Shown here one piece after another: positions 12,844-40,885 of a DNA stretch of 40,885 nt (position 1 is the stretch's first letter; every line of letters begins with the position of its first letter). The notes under the pieces are model-generated. The model saw only the letters and a program-made list of their open reading frames with translations. It searched no databases and was not told the DNA's origin. The position numbers and the translations under genes are program-made. This DNA is from a virus: positions 1 to 40,885 of IMG/VR virus record IMGVR_UViG_3300036820_000038. One strand, given 5' to 3'.

Positions 12844-15800
12844 TTAGGGGTTAATGATAAACCAATTAACAGCTGCGGTATCAGCTGCAACGGTTGAATA
12901 AATTGTAAAAGATGTAGCCGGAACAATTGATCCTACTACTAATTCACCAATATTTAAGATAGTTGGAGCTCCAGTTCCTGTGGAATGCGTTACAAGAACG
13001 ATAGTTGACGTGGTTACAGCAGTTGTGCTAATAACGACGCCAGTCGTACCATTTAAAGTTGCTTGACCACACGTAGCCGCACTACCAGTAGTGTTTGCAG
13101 TAGTAATCGCTCCTTGATATTGTGAAGTACCACTCGTAAAGAGAGGCTTTCCTAAAAATACTGAAAAAATTCCATCGTTAGCCGCTACGGGAGGAGTAGG
13201 TGCAGCTCCCGCATCCATTATATAAAATAAAGGAGTACTTCCATTATCTGTGCCTAATTGAAGCGAATAGGCCGGGGAATTTTCTCCAATGCCTACAAAG
13301 CATCCACTTCCAAGAACAAGAGCGTTACTAACATTTACAATGGCATTAGCTCCCAAGGCACATGCATTTGTAAGAGAATCTGCGCCTGCATCAGAAAAAA
13401 CACCTAAAAAAGTACAATTATCATACGTATCCTGAGCGCCACCAGCGCTAGAGCCAAAGGCGCTATTTCCATCTCCTCCAATTGTACTTCCTGCAAGAGC
13501 AGCAGTTCCGAATGCGGAATTGTTATTCCCGTCGACATTAGAAGCTAATGATCCTGATCCGAATGCGCTGTTTGCTGTTCCAATTGTGTTATTTTCAAGG
13601 GACCCCGTTCCGTAAGCGTTGTTGTCGGATGCAATCGTATTTACTGCTAAGCAATCTACTCCAATTGCATTATTATCGCCTCCAGTTAAATTTGACTGTA
13701 AAGCTAGCGTTCCAATTCCATTATTATTTGATCCACTGCTATTATCTAGTAAAACTAGCGTTCCAAAAGCATTGTTATTGCCGCCATCAATATTCGATGT
13801 TAATGCATTTAGTCCGAAAGCATTATTATTTACTCCGATTGTGTTTGAACTTAAGGCGTTTGTTCCAAAAGCATTGTTATTATCGCCGCTTAAATTTGCA
13901 AATAAAGTACTTGTTCCAAAAGCGTTATTTGAAGCCCCATCAATATTAGAAAATAAAGCTACATCTCCGAATGCATTATTCGAAGATCCAATCGTATTTT
14001 GATTAAGCGCTGCTGATCCGAAAGCGCTGTTAAATTGTCCAGTGAGGTTAGATTGTAATGTATCAAATCCAAATGCGTTATTGTCTGTTCCGTTTGAATT
14101 TGATTGTAAAGAATTGCTTCCAATTGAATTGTTATTTGTTCCGGTGTCATTTTGTTGAAGAGCCTGAAATCCGAAAGCGTTATTATCATTTCCGACGGAA
14201 TTTGCCCCTAATGAATCACTTCCGAAAGCATTATTATTATTGCCATCCGTATTTAATTCTAACGAATTTGATCCGAAAGCATTATTATTGTTGCCGTCCG
14301 TATTTAATTTTAATGAATTTGCTCCGAAAGCATTATCATTAATACCATTTATATTTGATGTAAGGGCGGAATCCCCAAATGCTGAATTCCCACTTACATT
14401 TACACTTTGAGCTAAAGTATCATTTCCAAATGCGCAATTAGCAATTCCATTGTTATTTGAAGACAACGAATTAAAACCAAAAGCGCAATTCGAAAATCCA
14501 GTTGTATTTGCACTTAATGAATTTGATCCAAAAGCGTTATTAGATGATACGTTATTAACTAATAATGAATTGTATCCAAAAGCGCATATATTATTTGATG
14601 ATGTACTTGAGGATGCAGCATTTGTTCCGAAAGCACTATTAAATGAGCCCGTCGCATTTGCATTTAAAGCACTATAGCCGAATGCACTACATAAAGAGCC
14701 GCTAGTATTATTTTGAAGAGCATTTTTTCCGAGGGAGCTATTATTGGTCCCAGTGGATGAGGTTGGCAACGAAGAAGTACCCAATGAAACATTGGTTAAT
14801 CCATCATCTAATAAATATGATTTCCATAGAGGATCCACGCCATTAGACGTTAGAACTTGATTAGTAGTTCCAACGGGTAATCGAGCGGGGCCAGGGAGGG
14901 AAGCATTATAAAATAACATATCCCCTTCCGTTGTCCATGGAAGAGAACCTGCGCCTGTAGCTGTAATGGTAATGCTTCCTGCGCCGTTAGTGACTGTTAT
15001 CCCTGCTCCGGCAGTCAGACTTGAGGCTACTGGATCAGCTCCTGTTGAACCAACGAGAAGTTGTCCATTTGTTAGGGTAATTGGATTTATAGCGCTGGTA
15101 CCTTCTCCTACCAGGATACCATGCGCCGTTAATGTTGTTTGGCCAGTTCCTCCTTGAGGAACCGTAATTGGAAAACTTACTCCTCCAGTTGATGCAATTG
15201 TAATGCTCCCGGCACCTGGCGTAATGGTTATGCCACTACCAGCAGTTAAAGAAGTTGCTACAGGATCCGCACCCGTAGATCCTATAAGGAGTTGACCATT
15301 AGTAAGAACAATGGGATTTAAAGCAGAAGCGCCTTCTCCAACTAAAATACCATGAGGTGTTTGAGAGGCCAATCCTATTGTAATCGTACCTGGCACAATT
15401 CCAACAACAAGATTGTTCCCAGCAACTAAATTAGTAGCAATAGGATCAAGACCTGGATCTCCGGTTAAAAATTGACCACTACCAAGTACAATTGAATTAA
15501 CATTCGAGGTACCTTCTCCTACCAGGATACCATGCGCCGTTAATGTTGTTTGGCCAGTTCCTCCTTGAGGAACCGTAATTGGAAAACTTACTCCTCCAGT
15601 TGATGCAATTGTAATGCTCCCGGCACCTGGCGTAATGGTTATGCCAGCGCCTGCTGTCAGACTAGCAGCCACCGGATCGGCGCCTGTCGACCCAACAAGC
15701 AATTGACCATTTGACATTACAATTGAATGAAGAGGAGAAGTTCCTTCTCCTATTAAAACTCCATGAGTTGTAAATGTGGTGCTTCCAGTTCCCCCATTAC

Positions 15801-27335: not shown

Positions 27336-27806
27336 CTATTCTTTAGTTACGTAAGTTGGATCAGAAATAACCCAGAAAATTTTATCATCGTTCACGACAT
27401 GCATAAAAGTTCCACGGTAGAGAAGCTGAGTTCCTTCATGGCGTGGATACACCACAAAATCTCCTATTTTGCACCAGGGGCCTGTATGCTTAAATCGATC
27501 GCCTTGATAACAATCTGGCCCCATAGCTACTACGAGGCCAACACAAGTTTGGTAGCGTTCCATACTTTTCGCAGTGTCTGTTTTAAGAATTGATGAAACT
27601 ATTTTTTTCCCAGATTTGTCATAAAAAACGCATTTGTTATCATCATCAGTCAGATGAAGTTTTAAAGTAATCTGATATCCACAGGTTCTAGGAGGCTCAA
27701 ATCCTAGAGATTCAGTGATCAAATCTTTAGCTTTTTGTTCTTCGTGCGGTTCAATATAACTATGCGTAGATTCTCGAGTAGGCGATGTTTTTTGTTTTTT
27801 ACTCAT
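27336..27806 (-). CDS. Phage GroES-like co-chaperonin
   Basis: A 156-residue protein. Residues about 88-152 follow the Cpn10 pattern: GLVVAMGPDCYQG, then WCKIGDFVVYPRHEGTQLLY and VNDDKIFWVISDP, matching G.VVAVGPG...G....VK.GD.V.....GT......... .EDDI..VI. The N-terminal 40 residues are a polar extension. Phage Cpn10 proteins (for example T4 gp31) join host GroEL to fold the capsid protein. Here it stands between portal and scaffold, a fitting place. The mobile loop is not clearly conserved. GGGGGC precedes the ATG. Confidence 0.7.
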   Translation of the reverse strand: MSKKQKTSPTRESTHSYIEPHEEQKAKDLITESLGFEPPRTCGYQITLKLHLTDDDNKCVFYDKSGKKIVSSILKTDTAKSMERYQTCVGLVVAMGPDCYQGDRFKHTGPWCKIGDFVVYPRHEGTQLLYRGTFMHVVNDDKIFWVISDPTYVTKE

Positions 27807-31551: not shown

Positions 31552-32019
31552 ATGATTGAAACCTATGCAAATTTAATTCAATTAACAGAAGAAACTTCCA
31601 GAATTGCTTTAAAATCTCTCGATGTTCAACTTAAAAAACAAAATATCAATGATACAAATAGTAAGGAATGCCTTATATTGTATAAAATTGAAAACACAAA
31701 AATGAACAATGTATCTTTCAAATACATAAAAGAATCAATTTTTGTTGGCACTAATCCATCCTATATTATTAAAAAAATGACAGACAATGGATACATTTGT
31801 CAGATTATAAATAATCATGATAGTCGGCAATTAAACCTTGGATTAACACCAAAAGGCAAAGAACTCTATAAAAAAATTAGTGAATTTATGGAAAAAGATC
31901 TTCAACTTTTAAATGAAAATGATCTTTCAACAGAACTTCTTAATAATTACCATAATTTTTCCAAAAAATTCAAAAATATTCTATTTAATAAGATATCAAA
32001 TGAAATGATTGTTGTGTAA
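31552..32019 (+). CDS. MarR-family transcriptional regulator
   Basis: A 155-residue protein with a winged-helix pattern: a helix-turn-helix around residues 55-85 (FVGTNPSYIIKKMTDNGYI) and a wing with HDSRQLNLGLTPKGKELY (about 90-110), matching D.R...I.LT.KG in MarR. Helices at both ends would form the dimer. The palindrome at 31477-31495 beside its promoter is a natural operator, so self-repression is likely. It heads a four-gene cassette pointing against the late operon. The DR of the usual DRR signature is kept, one Arg is replaced by Gln. The inducer is unknown. Confidence 0.75.
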   Translation: MIETYANLIQLTEETSRIALKSLDVQLKKQNINDTNSKECLILYKIENTKMNNVSFKYIKESIFVGTNPSYIIKKMTDNGYICQIINNHDSRQLNLGLTPKGKELYKKISEFMEKDLQLLNENDLSTELLNNYHNFSKKFKNILFNKISNEMIVV

Positions 32020-33875: not shown

Positions 33876-35453
33876 TTATCCATATAGCTTCTGTGTGATT
33901 CGTCGGGATGTATCTTGTCGATCATCATCATCGGCATGAGATACCCATCCACTTGATTTTAATCTTAGTAAAGTTTGAGTCATAGTGTCAACCAAATCTC
34001 GGGAATCTCCATTGGGGAACATAGCGCAATTCTCAATGAGAGTATCGGCAAAACCAGTGAGTCTTTTGCAATCAGGCGCTTGTGTTGGTACCCATACGCG
34101 GCCTGTTTCAATGAGAGAAGATGCCACTCTCACTCTCGCTAACTTATCCCCCCACCGGTTAGGATTAAACCCAATAACAGGGATACCAGCATGATGCAGA
34201 TCTTGGATGAGGGATGAACCAGAAACCTTTGCTTCAATCAATACTAAATCTGGTTTATGCAATCCTGTTGATTTAAAGGTATCTGAACCATTATCACGCC
34301 AATCATTGTAGAGACGTTTAGCCATCTTTCTTAATTCAGGATATTCCACCCTCCCACGCCATAAGCTCAAAAGCATGACATTTGGAATGTTATGATCATG
34401 GTAAAAGACTCCCCAGGTAGTACATGCGGAATAAGCATTCGTCTCACCTGTCTCAAGAGCTGTATCCCAAGATTGAATCGTATAGCGCATAGAGGGTAAG
34501 TCTGGTTGCTTCCAATGAGAGAACCAGTTCTTCTTAATGATGCCACCCTCTGTAGGAGCAGGCCATTGTTGAAGTTGACCAGAGATGTTATATTGAGAAC
34601 CAAGTAAGATCTTAAGTTTCTTAAGTTCACTTTCTCCTATCTGTTCTGGCCATAACAGTTCACCTTCTTTTGTACGGGGATCTTGCCAAACTTTTCCATT
34701 AGTGGATGGTAACTTTACCGTTACAGCGCATCGAGCTGACTCATACTCCATGGGAAGAATAAGCTTAACCCATTCATCATCTGCATCATTCTGCATGATA
34801 TGGCCAGAGATATCAGATTCATGAAGTCTCTGTTGTACCACCACTCGACAGCCAGTCTTTGCATTGTTCAATCGGGTAGACCAGACTTGATCCCACCAAT
34901 CATTCGCACCTTCTCGTTTGACTTCAGACTCACCATCCTTAGCATTATTCGGATCATCGCAGACAAGGATGCTTCCCCCTTCTCCCGTAACAGCAGCACC
35001 CACGCTGGATGCAATACGATAACCATTGCAGGTGTTGTCGAATCGACCTTTTGTATTCTGATCCCCAACAAGACGAAAAAGATTGCCCCATCTCTCATGA
35101 TACCAGGGGGATGTTAAGAGACGACGACATTTGACGGAATCTCGAAGAGATAAGCTTGCAGCATATGATGCGAATAAGAACTGTTCCTCAGGAGCATGAA
35201 TCCATCGCCACGCTGGCCACATTACAGACACCAGGGAGCTCTTTGTACAGCGGGGTGGTATGTTGATAAGGAGATTACGTATTTGACGCTGTGAGACAGC
35301 TTCTAGGTGCTCACAGATAGCTTGTAGATGCCATCCATCAGTGAAGGGAGTTTTTCCTTCAATATGTACCCATGATTGCTTAATGAATTCATGTAGAGAT
35401 TCCTTAGCTTTACCACGCGCTAATAAGTTCGCAATGATCTCACGTCTATCCAT
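33876..35453 (-). CDS. terL: Terminase large subunit (packaging ATPase/nuclease)
   Basis: The 525-residue packaging motor. Walker A is PPRCTKSS at about 66-73, a deviant form of the terminase P-loop; Walker B is ILVCDD at about 162-167. The nuclease domain shows acidic residues SWDTALETG (D330), LIEAK (E407) and GDSRDLVDTM (D486, D489), as in RNase H-like terminase nucleases. Other conserved parts are VVVQQRLHESDISGH (coupling motif) and WPEQ. ATG 35453 is chosen because it overlaps the upstream stop by eight bases exactly as the previous gene pair does; a TTG at 35468 is the alternative. Confidence 0.9.
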   Translation of the reverse strand: MDRREIIANLLARGKAKESLHEFIKQSWVHIEGKTPFTDGWHLQAICEHLEAVSQRQIRNLLINIPPRCTKSSLVSVMWPAWRWIHAPEEQFLFASYAASLSLRDSVKCRRLLTSPWYHERWGNLFRLVGDQNTKGRFDNTCNGYRIASSVGAAVTGEGGSILVCDDPNNAKDGESEVKREGANDWWDQVWSTRLNNAKTGCRVVVQQRLHESDISGHIMQNDADDEWVKLILPMEYESARCAVTVKLPSTNGKVWQDPRTKEGELLWPEQIGESELKKLKILLGSQYNISGQLQQWPAPTEGGIIKKNWFSHWKQPDLPSMRYTIQSWDTALETGETNAYSACTTWGVFYHDHNIPNVMLLSLWRGRVEYPELRKMAKRLYNDWRDNGSDTFKSTGLHKPDLVLIEAKVSGSSLIQDLHHAGIPVIGFNPNRWGDKLARVRVASSLIETGRVWVPTQAPDCKRLTGFADTLIENCAMFPNGDSRDLVDTMTQTLLRLKSSGWVSHADDDDRQDTSRRITQKLYG

Positions 35454-35784
35454 CGGATAGAAAAGCAATAACTTCAGAAGGAGGTTGTGCGAGCCAAATA
35501 GATGGTATCAAGTAAGAACTTGGGATGTCAGACGATGCAGTCAATCTACATTTATTATATGCTTCTCTCATTGCTTCGATACCCCATTGAATTCCACGAT
35601 CAAGACATTCAATGTATTCTTTTTTTAGTTCTTGTCCTTTTTTATTGCATTCATTTAATCCACCGTGACGACTCTCTTCAAAAACTAATAACGCGATTAG
35701 TGTAATTAAGCGTGCTTTTATCATCAATTGATCATCTTCGGAAACATCTTTAATATCGATCCATTTTATCATGAGTTCATCCAT
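35446..35784 (-). CDS. Hypothetical protein between terminase subunits
   Basis: A 112-residue protein with a hydrophobic helix (MIKARLITLIALLVFEESRH, about 21-40), a charged middle and a C-terminal segment with LIPSIWLAQPPSEVI. It overlaps the small terminase stop and the large terminase start by eight bases each, at the similar junctions ATGGATGA and ATGGATAG, so the three are one translational unit. The role is unknown. The tight coupling argues that it is needed in fixed ratio with terminase. Confidence 0.65.
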   Translation of the reverse strand: MDELMIKWIDIKDVSEDDQLMIKARLITLIALLVFEESRHGGLNECNKKGQELKKEYIECLDRGIQWGIEAMREAYNKCRLTASSDIPSSYLIPSIWLAQPPSEVIAFLSDG

Positions 35785-36142
35785 CGAGCTCAGTAAGCAT
35801 CTGCTGAAGCTTCTCAGTGCTTAACTCGCCGCTGAATAACGCCTTCTCATTTGATTTGATAACTTCCTTTGACATACCGAGGTAATGGTGTCCTAGCCAT
35901 TGTATGGCTACGAGATTCTTCTCGTGTACGGCTTTCTCCCAAATAATATTCTTCAAGACACCAAGTCCACGCAGTCTTGATCTATCTAACTCTCGTTTGA
36001 TTTCAGGATCTTCTTTGAGAACCAATTCAAATTCTTCAGGGGTGAGATTCGCAAAAGCAGCGATGCTGGCATTGTCTACCTGAGCATCGCCATAAGAAGA
36101 AATCTGCCATAAAAGATCTTGTCTCTTTTGTGCAGAAAGCAT
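35777..36142 (-). CDS. terS: Terminase small subunit (probable)
   Basis: The 121-residue helical protein contains KRQDLLWQISSYGDAQ, then IAAFANLTPEEFELVLKEDP, an HTH-like arrangement, and NLVAIQWLGHHYLGMSKE, the helix typical of many small terminases (...A..FLLK..LGM). Gene order is also right: directly upstream of the 112-aa gene and terL. Small terminases bind the packaging start on phage DNA; a pac/cos site is not identified. The upstream gap (36143-36252) holds a 7-bp inverted repeat that may be a regulator site. Confidence 0.7.
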   Translation of the reverse strand: MLSAQKRQDLLWQISSYGDAQVDNASIAAFANLTPEEFELVLKEDPEIKRELDRSRLRGLGVLKNIIWEKAVHEKNLVAIQWLGHHYLGMSKEVIKSNEKALFSGELSTEKLQQMLTELDG

Positions 36143-36252: not shown

Positions 36253-36927
36253 TCAATCGGGATCAGATATCATATAGCCACGGCCTCGAGTGGTTTTGAT
36301 GAAGCCGTTGCCAAGCGTGGATCTGAGTTTCTTACGGATGTAGCTGATCCACACATGCACAGTTCTAGTATAGGGTCTATCAACCTCATGGAGATAGATG
36401 TGATCTAAGATTTGATCTTCAGTAACATTTTTGTTTTTGTTGAGACATAAGAATTCTAAGATTTCATATTCCTTTACAGTTAGAGCAATGATCTTATCAT
36501 CGACTAACACACGATAGCAGCTAGGCACGATGGTGAGTCTGCCTACATGGATTTGCTCGCCTAAATGACCGTGTCGGTGGCGAACAAGAAGTTTAACTCG
36601 TTCCACGAATTCAGCTAGATTGAAAGGGATTGACATACACTCGTCGGCACCAGATTGGAATGCCCTGACTTTGAGATCAGCATTGTTCATTCCACAGAGG
36701 AACATGATAGGAGTACGTACCTTTTGAGCTCGCATCTGCTTTAAGACTTGGAAACCATCACTGTCTGCAAGCATCCGTCCCATAATAATGAGGTCATAGT
36801 CATAGATCTTTGCTAGCTCTAGACCTTCCTCACCCAAGGATGTAACCTCAATAGCGAACTCATTCTTAAGACGATTCTGGATAAGTTCTTTAGTATTCTC
36901 GTTAGTTTCTATTAGTAATATTTCCAT
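36253..36927 (-). CDS. CtrA-like response regulator without phosphorylation residues
   Basis: A 224-residue OmpR/PhoB-type regulator. The receiver keeps the CtrA-like stretch SLGEEGLELAKIYDYDLIIM (about 30-49), and the winged-helix domain (about 125-224) has LTVKEYEILEFLCLNKNKNV and TTRGRGYMISDPD, close to CtrA. In the receiver, CtrA D51 is Gly (G50), the acidic pair D8-D9 is T8-N9, the Lys of KPF is I100 and the switch Ser is C78. It therefore cannot be phosphorylated in the usual way. It is read toward the terminase genes from an upstream promoter. Likely a constitutive phage activator, or a competitor of host CtrA. Confidence 0.85.
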   Translation of the reverse strand: MEILLIETNENTKELIQNRLKNEFAIEVTSLGEEGLELAKIYDYDLIIMGRMLADSDGFQVLKQMRAQKVRTPIMFLCGMNNADLKVRAFQSGADECMSIPFNLAEFVERVKLLVRHRHGHLGEQIHVGRLTIVPSCYRVLVDDKIIALTVKEYEILEFLCLNKNKNVTEDQILDHIYLHEVDRPYTRTVHVWISYIRKKLRSTLGNGFIKTTRGRGYMISDPD

Positions 36928-36996: not shown

Positions 36997-37269
36997 TTAT
37001 GTCCCAGTGGGCGCAACAGAGTTGTCATTCAATGGAGCCATAAAATCCGATTCCTCGGAAGAGGAAGAAGGATCCAGGATAACCATGTTTATAGCAGCCC
37101 AAAGGATTTTAAAAAGACTATGTCTATCTTCATCAGAAAAATATTCTAAAAGTGCGTTAACGTGATCCATCTCATCTTCTGTAAGTGTGTGGTGGAGGGG
37201 GGATAAATCCGTAGGTATGAACTCTATTGATTCTGGCTTCTTGAAGTCATTGATGTCTATGATGTTCAT
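36997..37269 (-). CDS. Small acidic protein upstream of the CtrA-like gene
   Basis: A 90-residue acidic protein: MNIIDINDFKKPESIEFIP, a central helical part (LTEDEMDHVNALLEYFSDED, then LFKILWAAINMVIL) and a Ser/Glu-rich tail. GGAAAAG stands before the ATG. It is the first gene after the leftward promoter at 37375-37403 and lies 69 bases before the CtrA-like gene, so the two are probably one transcript. I do not recognise it. A partner or antagonist of the regulator is a reasonable guess from position only. Confidence 0.6.
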   Translation of the reverse strand: MNIIDINDFKKPESIEFIPTDLSPLHHTLTEDEMDHVNALLEYFSDEDRHSLFKILWAAINMVILDPSSSSEESDFMAPLNDNSVAPTGT

Positions 37270-37317
37270 GTATGCTTTTCCTAATGATATCCAAGCCTTA
37301 TACCATAGTTCACAGGA

Positions 37318-37344
37318 GAATGCAACCTCTGTAAGGTTGCATTC
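37318..37344. terminator. 11-bp perfect hairpin in the leader of the regulator operon
   Basis: GAATGCAACCT and AGGTTGCATTC pair perfectly with loop CTGTA. On the plus strand it is followed by TTATAA; on the minus strand there is no T run. It lies between the leftward promoter (start near 37367) and the 90-aa gene, so it could act as an attenuator or RNA stabiliser, or stop rightward transcripts. Confidence 0.55.
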
Positions 37345-37374
37345 TTATAACGCAACTTATTGATTAAATTATAT

Positions 37375-37403
37375 ATTATATTGTGCCACACCGTACCAGA
37401 TAA
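37375..37403 (-). promoter_or_regulatory. Leftward promoter of the regulator operon
   Basis: Read leftwards: TTATCT (37403-37398), 17-base spacer, TATAAT (37380-37375). The -10 is a perfect consensus. It drives the 90-aa gene, the CtrA-like gene and possibly the late module. Its -35 lies about 60 bp from that of the divergent rightward promoter. Confidence 0.7.
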
Positions 37404-37449
37404 CAGGTAGACAACAGAGTGTGCAAATACCTCCTCAAACGCAACACGC

Positions 37450-37464
37450 AACGTTTAAAACGTT
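37450..37464. promoter_or_regulatory. 15-bp palindrome at the rightward promoter
   Basis: AACGTTT-A-AAACGTT is a perfect palindrome around one central base. Its last base is the first base of the -35 at 37464. Direct copies of ACGCAAC stand just upstream. A bound dimer here would touch RNA polymerase, as repressor or activator. Confidence 0.6.
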
Positions 37465-37492
37465 TGACAAGTAATAATGAATTTTATATAAT
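37464..37492 (+). promoter_or_regulatory. Perfect-consensus rightward promoter
   Basis: TTGACA (37464-37469), exactly 17 bases, TATAAT (37487-37492): twelve of twelve consensus positions. No convincing reading frame follows for almost 1 kb. Start of transcription would be near 37499. Confidence 0.8.
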
Positions 37493-37498
37493 TAAACA

Positions 37499-38190
37499 GA
37501 AAAATATACACTTAAAAAACACTTATATAAATCCTTTTATACTCTCTATAATTATATAACAAGAGATATAGTGTGGAGAAGAAAATTTTGTGGGAAAGAG
37601 GAGGGGAGAAAGGGACCTCCCGCTAGCGTTTAAATCTAATCCTAAACACCACACAATCCAACAACCCATCTCTGAACGATCTTCTCCCTCTAAACTACCT
37701 AAACCTTCATGGATCTACACACTATTCTACACCCTATACACACAATCCAATCACTCTTATAATCTCTCAATCTATTCAACAAGTTGCACCACCACTCCAC
37801 TTCCTTAGCGTGTGTATAATACCGTGTAAAAAATCAACTTTTTTTAAGCTTTTCACTCACCACTCCTCCAATCTTTCACAACTCACCCCTCTTTGACTCC
37901 TCAGACTAACATCCTTTCATGGCAAACCTCCTCCAATTACGCTAAAACCTCCATACATGGCCCGTGAAGGCACCTAAACACCATTCGGTCATATTCCTAC
38001 CAACTTACCCCTTACATGCATTGTGTGGCGAGATATGGGGCTTCCAGACACACTTCACTTCCCTATTCCAAACTCAATCTACAACTTCACTCAGATTATG
38101 GCGTTTTTTTCTCGCGCGCGCGTTTTCTAATCCAATATAATACTATATAATTTAATATAAAGACTCATTTTCTTTAAGGAAAATGAGTCT
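37499..38190 (+). ncRNA. Candidate long non-coding, G-poor transcript
   Basis: The stretch starts at the perfect promoter and ends at the first of two hairpins (38161-38190). After a purine-rich part (37571-37616) the plus strand becomes very poor in G: about 18 G in 37621-37920, while C is several times more frequent. Reading frames here are short and of unlikely composition. It holds a 10-bp CG run (38113-38122). It may be an untranslated early leader, an origin or packaging region, or a regulatory RNA; the sequence alone does not decide. Confidence 0.45.
38161..38190. terminator. 12-bp hairpin, probable bidirectional terminator
   Basis: AGACTCATTTTC and GAAAATGAGTCT form a perfect 12-bp stem with loop TTTAAG. 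Flanks are AT-rich on both sides without a long T run. Its centre ATTTTCTTTAAGGAAAAT is the reverse complement of the centre of the next hairpin. Confidence 0.65.
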
Positions 38191-38236
38191 ATTACAATAC
38201 AACATATATAGTTATATTATTAATTAACTAATATTA

Positions 38237-38270
38237 AGAGACCTATTTTCCTTAAAGAAAATAGGTCTCT
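38237..38270. terminator. 14-bp hairpin, mirror partner of 38161-38190
   Basis: AGAGACCTATTTTC pairs with GAAAATAGGTCTCT over 14 bp, loop CTTAAA, then TCTTATAATA. It probably stops transcription in one or both directions. Its loop is fully complementary to the loop of the hairpin at 38161-38190, so the two RNAs could kiss. Confidence 0.65.
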
Positions 38271-38461
38271 TCTTATAATACATAAGATTATATATAGTAA
38301 TCTACTCTTCTTATCTTTCTTTCTTATCTTTTCTAAAATGATATAAGAGTGTGTACCTTCTATGAGTTTTGTGTGTGAAATAAAGAAAAGGAGTTGTGAA
38401 GAGGAATAAGATTGAGGTAATGTGTGCCAATTGATCACAGCTACAACCCAGGAAGAATTAA

Positions 38462-40607: not shown

Positions 40608-40885
40608 ATGGCTGACAACAGCATACACACCTTAGAAAAAAATCCAAGAGCAGAATTAGATTATACGGTTGATAAGTTTATAAATGGACTTATTACAGTG
40701 AAACAACCTAAGCACGGATTCCGTGCAGGATGTGATTCTATTTTTTTGGCAGCCTCTATTCAACCAGAACCAGAGACACGCGTTTTGGATGTAGGCGCAG
40801 GTGTTGGTGTGATATCTCTTGCATTAGCAAAACGATGTCCTGATGTAAAAATAGTGGCACTAGAGAATCACCCAGATCTTGTATC
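40608..40885 (+). CDS. tRNA1(Val) adenine-N6 methyltransferase-like protein, 3' part outside window
   Basis: The first 92 codons are present. After a polar start (MADNSIHTLEKNPRAELD) come FINGLITVKQPKHGFRAGCD and SIFLAASI, then VLDVGAGVGVISLALAKRCP, the SAM-binding motif I of class I methyltransferases, and IVALENH, motif II. G.l.l.QPk.GfRaG.DailLAA is the signature of the TrmN6/YfiC family in alphaproteobacteria, which methylates A37 of tRNA1(Val) in E. coli. AAAGGAG precedes the ATG by four bases. It is a normal chromosomal gene type and suggests that host DNA starts at or before this point. Confidence 0.85.
   Translation, partial: MADNSIHTLEKNPRAELDYTVDKFINGLITVKQPKHGFRAGCDSIFLAASIQPEPETRVLDVGAGVGVISLALAKRCPDVKIVALENHPDLV

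Follow-up and report, generated by a model that had tools for sequence, protein, structure and literature searches.

The best explanation for a 224-aa protein encoded in a viral genome is, at a probability of roughly 55%, that it is a CtrA-derived transcription factor that acts independently of phosphorylation through a pseudo-receiver and serves the phage; it would probably dimerise without phosphate and would be retargeted to phage DNA, plausibly to the late operon. CtrA is the regulator that times the alphaproteobacterial cell cycle. The window analyzed here is an IMG/VR virus record of 40,885 nucleotides (GC near 38%, att of the tRNA type), and the gene and its parts are located in it as follows.

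36253..36927, minus strand: CtrA-like pseudo-receiver regulator gene, 224 aa (translation, Pfam, NCBIfam, trees)
36577..36927, minus strand: degenerate receiver domain, aa 1-117 (alignment; predicted model near the CtrA receiver 4qpj_C)
36906-36901, 36780-36778, 36696-36694 and 36630-36628, minus strand: receiver codons T8/N9, G50, C78 and I100, respectively
36259..36555, minus strand: winged-helix DNA-binding domain, aa 125-223 (alignment, model)
about 36366-36313, minus strand: recognition helix, aa 188-205, RTVHVWISYIRKKLRSTL (CtrA equivalent KIIDVFICKLRKKL)

The reading frame is intact over all 224 codons. Its product has the receiver and winged-helix effector domain of the OmpR/PhoB response regulator family, with matches above cut-off to Pfam Response_reg (PF00072, 7.6e-16) and Trans_reg_C (PF00486, 3.7e-18). 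The best NCBIfam model is that of CtrA (NF045991), scoring 190 bits where its cut-off is 350 bits, which indicates a relative below the equivalog threshold of a model that is named RespRegCtrARhodob and may be strict for other orders. The protein does not qualify as a CtrA orthologue by this cut-off, by phospho-Asp51 and the acidic pocket (G50, T8, N9 and I100 were found instead) or by the CtrA recognition helix KIIDVFICKLRKKL, in place of which it has RTVHVWISYIRKKL. It also matches phrog_731 (PHROG 731, function not known) at 4.2e-44, with 151 bits over 221 residues.

In a careful tree, the protein grouped with CtrA (support 100/98) against 18 non-CtrA OmpR/PhoB proteins, and it was placed on a long branch as sister to all CtrA proteins (99/96). 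Its grouping with two other phage CtrA-like proteins, L014 and L023, was not rejected (p-AU 0.33); the outgroup row L267 was left out of the second careful tree. The first-pass annotation of this DNA had assigned the protein to the CtrA branch and had named a phylogeny outside that branch as a refutation, and the tree places it on the CtrA side. When the receiver and the DNA-binding domain were searched separately in a plasmid collection, CtrA was the best hit for each half, so that a chimera in which a CtrA receiver had been joined to a DNA-binding domain from elsewhere was rejected. As judged from sequence, the protein is CtrA-derived. Its overall identity to CtrA is about 40%, with means of 43% for the receiver, 38% for the DNA-binding domain and 33% for residues 180-206 (recognition helix included) against 36 host CtrAs (30 best genomic hits and six from plasmid-collection records). 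The earlier description of a protein close to CtrA in both domains was thus right about the relationship but too strong at means of 43% and 38%.

All five catalytic receiver residues are altered (D8T, D9N, D51G, S79C and K101I in CtrA numbering), whereas the catalytic site is intact in 36/36 of the host CtrAs compared. Translation and alignment bore out the pocket and switch changes that had been read from the letters (T8-N9, G50, C78 and I100). Pro55, the D+4 proline, is altered too, and Tyr98 of the Tyr-Thr coupling pair has become C97 in the window protein; both the proline and the pair are parts of a normal receiver according to a review of pseudo-receivers (PMC12632262). Among the 43 receiver positions that are invariant in hosts, 30 were retained and 13 lost. 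All six columns for phosphorylation and coupling were lost, as compared with 30 of 37 other host-invariant columns kept (p about 3e-4 for a set of six that was taken from the literature and applied after the alignment had been seen). In this alignment, the losses fall non-randomly on the phosphorylation apparatus.

The dimer-interface residues K87, D96, E107, R111 and R117 are retained (CtrA numbering, by alignment), with two changes, D97E and R118H; the corresponding interface pairs in PmrA are R87-E107, R111-D97 and R117/R118-D96 (PMC10927774). As aligned, the alpha4-beta5-alpha5 dimer face is mostly retained. An AlphaFold2 model built from 31 alignment rows has a mean pLDDT of 91, and in Foldseek its predicted receiver superimposes on that of CtrA (4qpj_C) at 1.1 A, with a target-length TM of 0.93; the predicted structure also matches full-length members of the OmpR/PhoB family. 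With a predicted receiver fold and five of five phosphotransfer positions altered, the protein has the properties of a pseudo-receiver (PsR/ALR), and a kept fold with a removed switch fits this class better than drift. Action without a phosphorelay, as the first-pass annotation had proposed, is supported by the loss of every phosphotransfer residue, together with the CtrA ancestry and the position of the gene at the head of an operon.

That position was borne out, the earlier annotation having placed the gene directly upstream of the terminase genes. The neighboring features on the same strand are the following.

36997..37269, minus strand: 90-aa ORF upstream of the regulator, without family match
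35777..36142, minus strand: 121-aa ORF in the small-terminase position, putative terS (without family match; position compared with CRP-901)
35446..35784, minus strand: 112-aa ORF with the putative terS on one side and terL on the other
33876..35468, minus strand: large terminase gene terL (phrog_38, 1.6e-76)

Between the regulator gene and the small ORF at the terS position are 110 bp; downstream of the regulator gene, on the same strand, come the two small ORFs in this position and terL, from which the structural genes run leftward. The regulator gene thus stands at the head of the packaging and structural operon. By TerL, the nearest named relatives are the Roseobacter phages CRP-901 (46%) and CRP-902 (44%), and related terminases are also present in two genomes (G510 and G633) of one order. 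CRP-901 has an identical gene order (terS-terL-portal, then GroES, then head) in the 22 kb read, and CtrA is absent from its annotation within these 22 kb. The structural region of the window contains a gene for a GroES-like co-chaperonin (27336-27806), as that of CRP-901 does, and, among the leftward genes but on the plus strand, a gene with weak similarity to the MarR-type LdtR (31552-32019). At 13608-14408, 51-bp repeats in series lie within a gene of 1000 aa that has a K1-lyase C-terminal domain and is tail-fibre-like. The contig ends within a methyltransferase gene (MTS domain), of phage or host origin, whose first part occupies 40608-40885.

The DNA-binding domain has changed where it would read DNA. 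Between residues 180 and 198, hosts are invariant at 17 positions, and the window protein differs at 13 of these (p about 0.006 relative to the remainder of the domain); the substitutions of the recognition region include K188R, I189T, I190V, D191H, F193W, C195S, K196Y and W215R (CtrA numbering). The helix SLGEEGLELAKIYDYDLIIM, read earlier as CtrA-like, is present, but the recognition helix is not that of CtrA; a CtrA-like stretch, SLGEEGLELAKIYDYD, is retained. Moreover, TTAA-N7-TTAA shows no enrichment in the window (10 observed vs 7.7+/-3.5 in shuffles). Because of the altered helix and the lack of CtrA-site enrichment, binding to host CtrA sites or promoters appears unlikely. Two earlier suggestions lose their footing here: that the protein couples virion production to CtrA-type sites, and that it competes with host CtrA on DNA, since nearly every host-invariant position of the recognition helix differs.

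Ahead of the leftward operon, two features were recorded.

37375..37417, minus strand: candidate activator-dependent promoter, 11-bp tandem repeat CTGTTGTCTAC/CTGTTATCTGG plus TATAAT
37464..37492, plus strand: sigma-70 promoter reading the opposite way, TTGACA-17-TATAAT, 12/12 consensus

In the former, the tandem repeat occupies 37417-37396 and TATAAT follows 17 nt beyond the proximal half-site. This repeat has the same motif as two TTGTTATCTA repeats that flank the att sequence, and repeats with an 11-bp period are common by related integrases; 37375..37417 is therefore ambiguous as a regulator site, a lead and not evidence. The TTGTTATCTA pairs, also of 11-bp period, lie at 471-492 and 690-711, on either side of a tRNA 3'-end-like sequence (546-591) that adjoins the integrase gene at 746. 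They were rejected as regulator sites; since many related integrase genes have 11-bp tandem repeats of other sequence upstream, those at 471 and 690 most likely serve as integrase arm sites, and the tRNA-like sequence together with them is probably attP. A stretch of 1.2 kb (37270-38461) is nearly free of ORFs (one of 85 aa) and contains two strong terminator-like hairpins besides the 12/12 sigma-70 promoter.

No close homologue came up when the protein alone was searched against viral and genome collections. No CtrA-like gene was found in 25 whole phage records with a related TerL, or in the flanks of 80 loci as fetched. The only related phage with such a gene is G009 (29 kb, TerL 50%), whose protein L023 has an intact active site with Asp and Lys kept and is encoded with a transporter gene on one side and ERF/YqaJ recombination genes on the other, away from terL. 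Because 25 related records are without the gene and the single relative's protein has kept its phosphorylation site, the regulator is an accessory gene in this phage lineage. Homologues that keep Asp and Lys had been named beforehand as a sign of a single decayed copy; this applies to L023 only, the 25 records being gene-free, whereas degenerate receivers are widespread among the CtrA-like proteins of phages.

In profile scans of viral contigs, a complete or partial receiver was present in 23 CtrA-like phage proteins besides that of the window. By the five-residue test, 15 of them have degenerate receivers vs none of the 36 host CtrAs (p about 1e-8). The phospho-Asp position is occupied by Glu in six, Asn in two, Ala in one and Gly in one, and L218 has the same Lys to Ile change as the window protein. 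On a tree made without the active-site columns (14 degenerate phage rows plus the window protein), at least eight changes of state were counted; by this measure, unrelated phages show the same kind of switch loss repeatedly. The CtrA recognition helix is retained in these proteins except in L023 and, in part, L014 and L015. At least 10 of the 23 loci are near a DNA polymerase or primase gene, these genes spanning at least four PHROG families: downstream of a phage DNA polymerase gene, at 0.4-2.9 kb, are nine (L012, L015, L020, L021, L024, L027, L041, L223 and L224), and downstream of a primase gene, within the same range, is L022. Further phage proteins consist of a CtrA-type winged helix without receiver, such as the annotated ctrA product of Roseobacter phage RDJLPhi1 (L231), encoded near an exonuclease gene. 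Separately, a host-like ctrA is represented by its final third on the prophage contigs of L226-L234, which are mostly about 40 kb long; on several of them this fragment lies right at the end of the contig, a pattern that would be expected of phages integrating into the 3' end of the host's ctrA.

It is possible, at slightly less than even odds, that alphaproteobacterial phages have repeatedly captured CtrA and freed it from the phosphorelay by a change of the phospho-Asp, often to Glu, or by a receiver shrunk or deleted. Most of these copies keep the CtrA helix, many are in replication modules, and they would override host cell-cycle control; the window protein would represent a further step, retargeted to phage DNA.

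For the window protein itself, the receiver has kept its fold and most alpha4-beta5-alpha5 contacts and has lost all phosphotransfer residues, which suggests that it dimerises without phosphate, probably constitutively, and that its activity would be set by the amount made. We infer that direct-repeat sites in the phage genome are the most likely targets of the winged helix, whose specificity has changed. A plausible target is the leftward late operon, including the ORF at 37269, the regulator gene itself, terS, terL and portal, and activation there would let the protein reinforce its own synthesis as a late regulator, free of the host CckA-ChpT phosphorelay. Against this explanation count the related phages that run the same late operon without the regulator gene, the integrase-arm motif of the sole candidate tandem site and the long branch of the protein.

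An unlikely alternative is that a single gene, taken from a host as cargo, is drifting into decay; this would suit the 25 gene-free records, the intact site in the one relative with such a gene and the long branch. However, drift should be weighed against an intact frame of 224 codons, losses that cluster in the phosphorylation apparatus, with 30 of the 43 receiver positions invariant in hosts unchanged, and like losses in unrelated phages. A phosphate-blind CtrA might instead occupy host CtrA sites, including the replication origin, and arrest or redirect the cell cycle. Such a role agrees with the CtrA ancestry, with the block of DnaA by host CtrA at oriC (PMC12186491) and with the other phage proteins that keep the CtrA helix, several with Glu at the phospho-Asp position, but it appears improbable for a protein whose recognition helix is replaced (the K188R to W215R set) in a phage without enrichment of CtrA sites.

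It is more improbable still that the protein is dominant-negative, forming mixed dimers with host CtrA through the alpha4-beta5-alpha5 face and thereby titrating CtrA: the interface residues and SLGEEGLELAKIYDYD are largely or wholly retained, but such interface residues are common to OmpR/PhoB proteins and hence say little about partner choice, and R118 is lost. Least probable is a new input to the receiver, for instance redox sensing via Cys78, in place of the Thr/Ser of the coupling pair, and Cys97, in place of its Tyr. The T and K-3 positions are precisely those that the two cysteines occupy, and the second Foldseek hit, RitR, is a response-regulator derivative that senses redox state; yet the cysteine pair is seen in no relative. 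The phage-serving, phosphorylation-independent regulator remains our preferred reading.

Phosphate-free action by such a protein has precedents in ChxR and HP1043, which work without phosphorylation (PMC3960148, PMC12632262). An Asp-to-Glu change can mimic phosphorylation, and ctrA.D51E has been so used in Caulobacter (PMC12186491); such a change does not always activate (PMC12632262; PMC4395418). The portion of PMC9437464 covered here describes host CtrA acting on phage promoters and phage-borne homologues of GcrA and CcrM, with no mention in that portion of phage-borne CtrA, and two reviews of aspartate-less or pseudo-receiver regulators do not mention phages; the literature considered was open-access. 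A set of phage CtrA proteins without a working switch raises the question of whether a locked copy of a cell-cycle regulator steers host replication or phage genes. The phage derivatives, several with Glu and many near DNA polymerase or primase genes, open this question to direct test, and the window protein adds a case in which the DNA-reading helix has changed as well.

Compared with known systems, the window protein shares with CtrA the two-domain OmpR/PhoB architecture, the receiver signature GEEG..L.K.YDYD and the GH linker, but it lacks the phospho-Asp, acidic pair, Ser/Thr and Lys, is phage-carried, has an altered recognition helix and scores 190 vs 350 bits. The phrog_731 proteins (for example L021, L212 and L218) are likewise phage-borne and CtrA-derived with mostly degenerate receivers, although most of them keep the CtrA helix and at least 10/23 are near polymerase or primase genes, whereas the window gene is by the terminase and its helix is altered. 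Receiver-less phage CtrA proteins (phrog_31800; RDJLPhi1, 2 and 6) also have a CtrA-type DNA-binding domain without phosphorelay input, but their receiver is absent rather than degenerate and the CtrA helix is kept. Finally, ChxR, HP1043 and RitR are OmpR/PhoB-type regulators with degenerate receivers as well; in contrast to the window protein, they are chromosomal and not derived from CtrA.
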